The notes under the pieces were generated by a model. The model worked only from the letters and a program-made list of their open reading frames with translations. It was not told the origin of the DNA and did no database searches. This document shows, in pieces, positions 3,541 through 59,152 of a stretch of DNA of 64,000 nt. Source of the stretch: Bacillus sp. HMF5848 (GTDB taxonomy: Bacteria; Bacillota; Bacilli; Bacillales; HMF5848); NCBI RefSeq assembly GCF_003944835.1, contig NZ_RWIV01000001.1, positions 1,093,501 to 1,157,500 on the forward strand, written 5' to 3'. Every line of letters begins with the position of its first letter. The first letter of the stretch is position 1. A program made the translations under genes and the position numbers.

Positions 3541-3960
3541 CTAAAGTGAACTTGAAATTTTCTGAGCAATATCTTGGAGATCTTCGGATGTGTATTGACT
3601 ATTATTTGTTTTCCAAACAGCGCCAAAGCCGTCTCCTTTACCATAGCGAGGAATTAAGTGCATATGAAAGTGAAACACAGATTGTCCAGCATCTTCGCCG
3701 TTATTATTTAACACATTTAATCCGACTGGTTGGAATTGCTCGTGAATGGCATTTGCTATATGTGGTACAACTTTAAAAATACTTTCAGCTTCTTTTTCAG
3801 ATAACTCATATACGTTCTCTTTATGTACCTTCGGGATAACAAGTGTATGTCCTTTAGTGACTTGACTAATGTCCAGAAATGCGACAACATCTTCATTTTC
3901 AAACACTTTTGCACAAGGGATGTCCCCGTTAACTATTTTACAAAAAATACACTCACTCAT
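3541..3960 (-). CDS. hit: HIT-family nucleotide-binding protein Hit
   Basis: 139 residues from ATG 3960. The longer frame adds 13 residues that do not fit the family, whereas AAAGGGTG lies just upstream of 3960. The histidine triad HFHMH is at residues 97-101, with the conserved N-terminal Cys4/Cys7 pair and an NNNGEDAGQSV loop. HIT proteins hydrolyse or bind purine nucleotides and are dimeric and cytoplasmic. It lies opposite ecsA as in B. subtilis, with an unusual structured RNA in the gap between them. Confidence 0.95.
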   Translation of the reverse strand: MSECIFCKIVNGDIPCAKVFENEDVVAFLDISQVTKGHTLVIPKVHKENVYELSEKEAESIFKVVPHIANAIHEQFQPVGLNVLNNNGEDAGQSVFHFHMHLIPRYGKGDGFGAVWKTNNSQYTSEDLQDIAQKISSSL

Positions 3961-4046: not shown

Positions 4047-4090
4047 TAAGAAAAAAAACAACGGAACAGGGTAGTGGTACCCTGCTCCGT
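4047..4090 (-). terminator. Intrinsic terminator of the hit-ecsA RNA
   Basis: A 13-bp stem (ACGGAGCAGGGTA pairing with TACCCTGTTCCGT, one G-U) with loop CCAC, followed on the minus strand by TTG and eight T. It is one of the strongest terminators in the window. Confidence 0.9.
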
Positions 4091-4320
4091 CTATGAAGAG
4101 GCAGATTTGCGTCTAATACAGTAAAGTCTCTTTACGAAACACCTCATTTGTCATGGAAGTTGTTTGGTTACTTCACAAATGTGTCTTTCGTCAACACCTC
4201 ATTTGGTTGATATCGAGTACTATTTGCTAGAGCTTAAAGTAAAATGTCGTTCACCGACACCTCATTTCAATGTTTGATGATTCTGTGTTCATCTTCATTG
4301 TTTAACCTCTGCCCCTTCGC
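4047..4320 (-). ncRNA. Structured RNA with three AAAUGAGGUG repeats, hit-ecsA intergenic
   Basis: Read on the minus strand from about 4320 to 4047. A closing helix joins GAAGGGGCAG (4318-4309) to CUGCCUCUUC (4104-4095). A local hairpin follows (CAAUG..CAUUG around 4300-4266). Then come three copies of AAAUGAGGUG, at 4267-4258, 4204-4195 and 4149-4140. The RNA ends in a strong terminator hairpin with a U tract. Two helices contain pairs that are G-U on the minus strand but A-C mismatches on the plus strand, which fixes the strand. Copies 1 and 2 can be drawn as hairpin loops presenting AAAUGAGG, or as a helix with AGG bulged. No open frame or SD fits it. It may be a free small RNA, or a leader attenuating hit 87 nt downstream. 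I cannot name the family, and the 5' end is approximate. Confidence 0.7.
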
Positions 4321-4473
4321 TAATTATTATGGACCAACGATGCCGAAATTATTACAAAGAATTTAATTATTTTATTTTATTATCATTTATTGTGGCTATA
4401 GAAGTTAAACCTGACGAAATCATCTCGTGAAATATAGGGTGAAAACAATTAATGAAACCTTGAAGGGAAAAAA

Positions 4474-4536: not shown

Positions 4537-5274
4537 ATGAGCTTATTACAAGTAAAAGATTTATCCGGTGGTTATACGAAAAATAATGTATTACAGGATG
4601 TGTCTTTTGAAGTAAAACCTAAAGAGATCGTTGGTCTTATAGGTCTAAATGGCGCAGGAAAAAGTACAACGATTAAACATATTATTGGATTGATGGAGCC
4701 TCGAAAAGGAGAGGTGCAAATTAATGGTGTAAAGACGCAAGACAATATAGAGAAATATCGCTCGCAATTTAGCTTTATTCCTGAAACACCTATACTATAT
4801 GAAAACTTAACATTAAAAGAGCATATCGAGCTAACAGCAATGGCTTATGGGTTAACGAAAGAACAGCTTGAAGAGCGTACACCAATATTGCTGAAAAAAT
4901 TTAGAATGGAAAAACGGTTGTCTTGGTTTCCTTCACACTTTTCTAAGGGCATGAAGCAAAAGGTTATGATTATGTGTGCTTTTTTAGTACAACCTTCTTT
5001 ATATATTATTGATGAACCGTTTGTTGGTTTAGATCCTCTTGGGATTCACGCTTTGCTTGAGCTTATGCAAGAGATGAAGGAAAGTGGAGCAGGAATACTC
5101 ATGTCAACACATATATTAGCAACAGCTGAAAAATATTGTGATTCATTTATTATTCTTCATGATGGAAAAATTCGCGCAAAAGGTACATTATCTGACTTGC
5201 AAAATAGCTTTAAAATGCCAGGTGCGTCGTTAGATGATATTTATATTGAGCTAACAAAGGAAGAAGAGCAATGA
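4537..5274 (+). CDS. ecsA: ABC transporter ATP-binding protein EcsA
   Basis: 245 residues, the usual EcsA length. Walker A is GLNGAGKST (about 36-44), the signature is the degenerate FSKGMKQK typical of EcsA-like exporters, and Walker B is LYIIDEPFVGLDP. With EcsB it forms an ABC exporter needed in B. subtilis for protein secretion, competence, and processing of RasP substrates. The last codon overlaps the start of ecsB by 4 bp (ATGA), which indicates translational coupling. Confidence 0.95.
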   Translation: MSLLQVKDLSGGYTKNNVLQDVSFEVKPKEIVGLIGLNGAGKSTTIKHIIGLMEPRKGEVQINGVKTQDNIEKYRSQFSFIPETPILYENLTLKEHIELTAMAYGLTKEQLEERTPILLKKFRMEKRLSWFPSHFSKGMKQKVMIMCAFLVQPSLYIIDEPFVGLDPLGIHALLELMQEMKESGAGILMSTHILATAEKYCDSFIILHDGKIRAKGTLSDLQNSFKMPGASLDDIYIELTKEEEQ

Positions 5275-18310: not shown

Positions 18311-18394
18311 TACAAAATCCTGCACTTATTTTTTGCAAAGCACGTGATAGTATTGCAAAATAGTGCCTAGAACAATAAAAAATGAGGTGTAAGG

Positions 18395-59055: not shown

Positions 59056-59152
59056 TCTCGATAAAGGCAAAGCTGATGAAAATCAGTGACGCAAAGCTAC
59101 AGGGGCTAACGTGCGAATACGCACTATGCCAGCCAGTTACCGAAAGATACAG
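59056..59152 (+). ncRNA. Cyclic di-GMP-I (GEMM-I) riboswitch aptamer
   Basis: The conserved elements occur in order. There is an AAAGGCAAAGC junction. A P2 hairpin GCTGAT-GAAA-ATCAGT carries the GAAA tetraloop. The invariant GACGCAAAGC follows. The P3 tetraloop receptor is GGGGCTAAC..TATGCCAGCC, with a GTGCG-AATA-CGCAC arm. The closing AGCCAGTTACCGA comes last. P1 can pair the ATCT..CG before the aptamer with CGAAAGAT after it. All ligand-contacting positions that I can map from the Vc2 aptamer (junction G, central A, distal C) appear present. A terminator follows 64 nt later and the Tad pilus genes lie downstream. Confidence 0.93.

Follow-up and report, generated by a model that had tools for sequence, protein, structure and literature searches.

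A conserved small RNA gene between hit and ecsA carries a reiterated Shine-Dalgarno-like motif

The hit–ecsA gap of Bacillus sp. HMF5848 contains a small RNA (sRNA) gene that is real and widely conserved among spore-forming bacilli. The gene is very probably the orthologue of a known sRNA, Bvs196/S357/ncr1670; what is new is the meaning of its repeated motif, which looks like a Shine-Dalgarno (SD) sequence and like a place where ribosomes dock without making a protein. All positions given below are those of the window, i.e. the whole 64,000-nt stretch of DNA that was analysed.

The sRNA gene, its repeats and its predicted fold

The sRNA gene occupies positions 4050–4324 of the minus strand, with a 3′ end set by the terminator and a 5′ end near 4324–4319 that is inferred from the −10 box, which gives a predicted length of ∼275 nt. 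It forms a unit of its own in the gap, on the strand of its downstream neighbor hit (3541–3960, minus strand, Pfam HIT), and ends in its own terminator before hit is reached. The divergent neighbor is ecsA (4537–5274, plus strand, ABC transporter). The first-pass annotation had reported three exact copies of AAATGAGGTG with starts 63 and 55 nt apart, and both the coordinates and the spacings were borne out on the minus strand. These copies of element I are located at 4258–4267 (copy 1), 4195–4204 (copy 2) and 4140–4149 (copy 3), and they score 37.5, 33.8 and 29.4 bits, respectively, with R1, a 33-nt model of the unit. The three-copy array is far beyond chance: the mean number of AAATGAGGTG in 5000 shuffles was 0.0006, and only one of 2000 shuffles contained any 10-mer that occurred three times in the gap. 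The only other AAATGAGGTG in the window, at 18380 on the plus strand, is apparently the ribosome-binding site (RBS) of a ferrochelatase-like ORF. The consensus of the unit is AAAUGAGGUGUYURYNRMAGA, in which the fourth base is an invariant U and conservation runs past the SD core into a downstream part (YURYNRMAGA) that has no role in 16S pairing. Non-exact units are few (6 of 97 in the model-found set). Three of these six, printed in full, read AUGGGGUG, and a fourth has the same change according to the column counts; the changed units listed come from loci L129, L045 and, twice, L132.

The fold of the minus strand reaches −90.4 kcal/mol (z −6.98) and that of the plus strand a z of −3.30, and in neither case was any of 200 shuffles as good. 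The comparison of z values favors the minus strand, in agreement with the earlier assignment of a structured RNA to this strand. In the predicted fold, GAAGGGGCAGA (4318–4308) and TCTGCCTCTTC (4105–4095) form an 11-bp helix with a mean pair probability of 0.98, so the long-range closing helix that had been proposed is present in the window, and it is kept and covaries in relatives. For the helix count, at least two exact copies were required of a locus and redundant 5′ strands were removed, which reduced 90 loci to 57, three of which lacked the GAAG anchor. In the 54 non-redundant 5′ strands the median energy of the locus' own duplex is −18.4 kcal/mol, compared with −13.4 kcal/mol with strands swapped between loci and −10.5 kcal/mol with shuffled partners, a comparison that favors own pairing because the 5′ anchor was picked per locus by best duplex. 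Columns 4 to 8 after GAAG contain G-C and A-U pairs and partly C-G and U-A pairs. The predicted closing helix is thus supported by comparison. The set of 57 non-redundant RNAs used in the counts below contains no duplicates and is restricted to RNAs whose helix reaches −13 kcal/mol or better.

The RNA ends in an intrinsic terminator (4050–4091, minus strand), as do Bvs196, S357 and ncr1670. Its stem is formed by 4091–4078 and 4073–4060 and is followed by eight T at 4058–4051. The eight U of the original description are therefore correct, and the stem has 14 bp in the predicted fold instead of 13. The first-pass annotation had also described the repeats as exposed, which the predicted fold does not support: AUGAGGUG is almost wholly paired in copy 1 and partly paired in copies 2 and 3. 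Averaged over 189 copies of AUGAGGUG in the 57 RNAs, the unpaired probability is 0.25, lower than in the RNA as a whole (0.34) and in other 8-mers with the same G+C (0.31). Unusual exposure of these sites is not supported by the predicted folds.

Conservation, relocation and promoter of the gene

Of 61 genomes searched by blastn with the RNA, 15 gave a match, the host genome among them, and most of the loci fetched in this way have hit and ecsA on either side of the match. Eighty named loci were fetched by Hit, of which 58 have ecsA divergently upstream. Exact copies of ATGAGGTG, between 1 and 6 per gap, are present in 39 of these 58, and the total over all 58 gaps is 120, compared with 0.38 in shuffles. 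The 19 gaps without a copy include those of Psychrobacillus, Sporosarcina, Lysinibacillus yapensis, Alkalibacterium, Fictibacillus and Geomicrobium. Among the loci with the most similar Hit (L019–L059), 40 include the gap and 39 of them carry a copy, the exception being one Bacillus (REN10, L058); L047, which is cut off before the gap, was left out of this count. In the host genome, R1 has three matches with E <0.01, all at this locus, and the next match scores 19.5 bits. At E 0.05, R1 finds the unit in 98 of the 130 order genomes and in none of the remaining 32. The repeats noticed in the window are thus conserved in relatives, both in the gap and by R1, and their number per RNA ranges from 1 to 8, with the maximum in L112.

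At the level of the class, R1 matches 12 of 151 genomes at E 0.003. In one genome outside the order (G404) the hit–ecsA gap is once more the site of the RNA, which is real by locus and anatomy; two others (G494 and G527), with single R1 matches and a σG score below the cut-off, were judged to be chance. Since σG is over its cut-off in 102 of the 151 class genomes, compared with 12 for R1, σG is not sufficient for the presence of the RNA; the corresponding test within the order does not discriminate, as all 11 same-order genomes of that draw have σG. Five loci of one family (L134, L135, L137, L139 and L140) and one of another (L143) have a longer hit–ecsA gap, in which, judged by eye, a seeming cysteine-rich lipoprotein-like frame stands instead of or beside the RNA. 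The gap of L143 contains an element II-like GGAGATGGTTCTCTTGGAC (element II is defined below) with a degenerate TTGAGGTGT, possibly a decaying copy of the RNA.

An RNA with AUGAGGUG is also found at ten loci away from hit–ecsA. Judged by eye and from ORFs only, it lies near small-protein genes of similar look in L155, L156, L157, L159 and L160, with an oxidase-like gene as well in L156 and L157, and after a YtxH-like gene in L164, L168 and L170; L166 and L167 represent further contexts. The genomes G038, G078, G108, G039 and G079 each have one R1 match at E 0.05. A script detected a [CT]ATNNTA box upstream and some 5′/3′ pairing in 8 of the 10 relocated loci (L167 and L168 gave no row). Their 5′/3′ duplexes are weaker than those at hit–ecsA, and in five of the loci a UUG mini-ORF or a similar RBS-like stretch precedes the single copy. 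The persistence of the RNA at such loci argues against a cis role for hit and ecsA and indicates that it acts in trans. When 16 further loci were compared with Rfam, the only match was to BsrG (L159:1040–1309, plus strand, 73.6 bits), which adjoins the relocated RNA and lies outside it.

A −10 box of the form [CT]ATNNTA is located just upstream of the closing helix in 47 of 56 RNAs (2.6 in shuffles). In 26 of the 56 it is preceded, at 14–19 nt and nearly always at 17, by a −35 box G[ACT]AT[AG] (0.1 in shuffles). The window has CATAATA (4325–4331, minus strand) at the same place as the −10 box of the relatives, and a weak −35 candidate, TAATA (4354–4350), at a spacer of 18. Judged by consensus sequences, we take these boxes to be of σF/σG type. 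This assignment agrees with the published control of Bvs196 by SigF/SigG (PMC9147052).

The repeated motif as a probable Shine-Dalgarno sequence

The first-pass annotation had suggested a protein, an mRNA or a ribosome-related partner for the repeats, and a ribosome-related one is the best guess that the sequence allows. The 3′ tail of the host 16S rRNA, GGATCACCTCCTTTCTA, is the usual one and occurs in five copies in the genome. AAAUGAGGUG is one base off a full SD, and the duplex of element I with the tail is modest, at −9.5 kcal/mol compared with −17.0 kcal/mol for a perfect SD. The host genome contains AAATGAGGTGT 12 times and its reversed control three times. Outside the RNA, AAAUGAGGUGU occurs at nine sites, six of which (L214, L218, L219, L220, L221 and L222) precede, by 5–7 nt, the start codon of a frame of at least 96 codons; these frames include a ferrochelatase-like and an ABC-permease-like one (by eye). 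Of the other three, L217, where the only start codon is a GTG 2 nt behind the SD, was left out of the six, and L215 and L216 lie inside longer frames. The six sites at RBS position indicate that the cell uses AAAUGAGGUGU as an SD. Within the sRNA family, none of 120 distinct units has ATG, GTG or TTG 4–9 nt after GAGGUG. This absence is in part a consequence of the conservation of the sequence that follows the motif, and the 120 units are accordingly not independent. Element I was also considered as a coding start and rejected: 20 of the 120 units have a stop within codons 2–5 and the following codons vary; 93 stay open through the first nine codons. The 57 RNAs contain 15.7 anti-SD sites per kb, compared with 6.1 in dinucleotide shuffles, a density that is partly circular because the RNAs were chosen by element I; 189 of the sites are in element I, 82 in element II and 124 elsewhere.

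Element II consists of GGRGAUGRU or a slight variant of it, a spacer of four bases, a start codon and NAY. It is present in 47 of the 57 RNAs (0.2 per set in shuffles; copies in related genomes are not independent), and its start slot, in which any NNG was allowed, holds UUG in 57, AUG in 4 and GUG in 2 of 63 cases. The ORFs that follow have 5 to 31 codons, mostly fewer than 19. Ten of the 57 RNAs, including that of the window, do not contain the strict pattern, and neither does the B. subtilis group. A possible short ORF, MKMNTESSNIEMRCR (4251–4298, minus strand), stands behind AGAGG in the window and is perhaps, though weakly, a degenerate element II. The textbook RBS and the restriction of the start slot to true start codons are what could be expected if the RNA were an mRNA for these tiny ORFs. 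However, the peptides, mostly of 5–18 residues, are alike only in their first two or three codons, strict element II is missing from the RNAs just mentioned, and the window ORF list has no ORF of at least 50 codons on the minus strand within 4047–4320, so a micropeptide carrier is very improbable.

We tentatively propose that the element I array holds 30S subunits non-productively in the forespore. The gene would be read on the hit strand from its forespore (σF/σG-type) promoter and ended by its own terminator, and the resulting RNA would offer several sites for pairing with the 16S rRNA 3′ end, the reiterated AAAUGAGGUGU acting as an SD sequence without a start codon. At element I, 30S subunits would be held without productive initiation, and in most relatives the element II initiation site with its tiny ORF would load ribosomes upstream of an element I. 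In effect, ribosomes may be sequestered or pre-positioned as the forespore turns dormant. Expression in the window organism, 30S binding and the consequence for translation are steps that we infer. A docking or decoy RNA is the simplest reading that brings together the forespore promoter, the loading sites and an SD-like array that lacks start codons. In its fullest version, the RNA would be an array of decoy SD sequences that binds the anti-SD tails of 30S subunits and so quiets, stores or protects ribosomes towards dormancy, with mini-ORFs bringing in additional ribosomes in most species; this version is possible but doubtful.

The sequence evidence for docking is identical to that for self-stabilisation, in which 30S subunits at element I would block a 5′ exonuclease and let the RNA persist in the forespore and the spore, while its function would lie elsewhere. 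SD sequences that are not used for translation do stabilise transcripts in B. subtilis (PMC7509114). One site near the 5′ end should suffice for this, yet up to 8 copies are spread throughout the RNA, and the closing helix already seals the 5′ end, which makes self-stabilisation unlikely.

Several observations count against docking, among them the modest duplex with the 16S tail and the dependence among the 120 units. First, predicted folds pair GAGG above average, with copy 1 paired. Second, the invariant U, where 16S pairing would want G, and the conserved tail of the unit suggest a reader other than 16S rRNA. These features are the best argument for multiple sites of an RNA-binding protein (Hfq, KhpA/B or other) that would read AAAUGAGGUGUYURYNRMAGA within or next to a small hairpin. 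With 79.3% paired cells, the tail is consistent with a hairpin of 5 bp, and ncr1670 was enriched 2.77-fold with Hfq (PMC3574147). However, shuffles likewise give 79.3% paired cells, so covariation of the hairpin, in which changes are moreover one-sided, finds no support in this comparison; the Hfq enrichment is next to the lowest among the table rows covered; and other occurrences of the motif in the genome serve as ordinary RBSs. A protein reader is therefore improbable. Third, by an approximate mapping, the published target sites of Bvs196 fall between element I copies. The RNA could be a conventional antisense sRNA of the forespore, acting in trans by pairing with such mRNAs as sspN-tlp and spo0A, a role that has been proposed for Bvs196; the repeats would then be a structural or secondary feature. 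Bvs196 binds both in vitro, with Kd values of 74 nM for sspN-tlp and 3.6 μM for spo0A by MST, and mRNAs change in its deletion strain (PMC9147052). On the other side, the predicted contacts, 74–131 and 109–124, lie between copies 1 and 2 of the B. subtilis-group RNA L191, whose copies start at about 34, 151 and 210 (approximate mapping). The loops are variable according to the Bvs196 article (PMC9147052), and antisense pairing gives no role to the repeats, the most conserved feature. We consider it rather unlikely.

If the motif docks 30S subunits, forespores would handle ribosomes with an RNA, which would bear on the shut-down of translation before dormancy; a decoy array, if true, would be the RNA counterpart of ribosome hibernation factors. 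S357/ncr1670 passes from an anonymous B. subtilis RNA segment to a defined family that extends across an order, and to at least one genome beyond it, and whose functional motif can be tested; the unit model would allow genome annotation to find the sRNA gene.

Comparison with known RNAs

A scan with Rfam 15 at gathering and relaxed thresholds found no credible family at the locus, tmRNA, RNase P, SRP RNA, 6S, T-box and riboswitches included. The same scan detected a c-di-GMP-I riboswitch at 59056–59144 of the window (plus strand, 82.5 bits). A B. subtilis-group genome, whose Hit is 86% identical to what we take to be the B. subtilis Hit, served as a stand-in for B. velezensis and B. subtilis; its hit–ecsA gap of 499 nt contains three element I copies and an RNA of ∼300 nt. 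The first-pass description of the RNA as unassigned is right for Rfam and wrong for the literature, in which the locus matches those of Bvs196 (PMC9147052) and ncr1670/S357 (PMC3574147, PMC4410918). Bvs196 of B. velezensis PEBA20 is a forespore-specific RNA of 294 nt from a 490-bp hinT–ecsA gap, and its deletion yields spores with reduced heat and UV resistance (PMC9147052). The B. subtilis homologue is called S357 in the introduction of that article and S547 in its discussion; as S547 is CsfG (PMC8216469), S357 is likely the true homologue. ncr1670 (256 nt, hinT–ecsA; PMC3574147) has been equated with S357 (PMC4410918). The words "motif", "GAGGUG", "Shine" and "peptide" are absent from the main text on Bvs196, which accordingly describes neither the repeats nor any resemblance to an SD (PMC9147052). 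No description of the repeats, the SD likeness, element II or the relocated copies was found in the passages and articles covered, which lie mostly outside subscription journals and do not extend to the original S357 and ncr1670 reports.

CsfG (RF00516 ylbH, opposite strand) is likewise a forespore sRNA under σF/σG (PMC8216469). In contrast to the window RNA, which is below the RF00516 gathering threshold, it is C-rich and lies at another locus (host copy at G000:C1:1802619–1802744). A role as a sponge for CsfG was rejected, as in 8 of 8 genomes the duplex between the two RNAs is less stable than with shuffles. With STAB-SD of the cry3A leader, element I shares an SD sequence that is not used for translation (PMC7509114), and none of the 120 distinct units has a start codon. 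However, the STAB-SD site lies in an mRNA 5′ leader, whereas 1 to 8 copies of element I are distributed throughout a free-standing, non-coding RNA with its own terminator before hit. The closest likeness is to Bvs196/S357/ncr1670, with which the window RNA shares the hinT/hit–ecsA gap and the architecture of a free-standing RNA of ∼300 nt with a terminator, in the case of Bvs196 under SigF/SigG; a difference is element II, which is an additional feature of most relatives outside the B. subtilis group.
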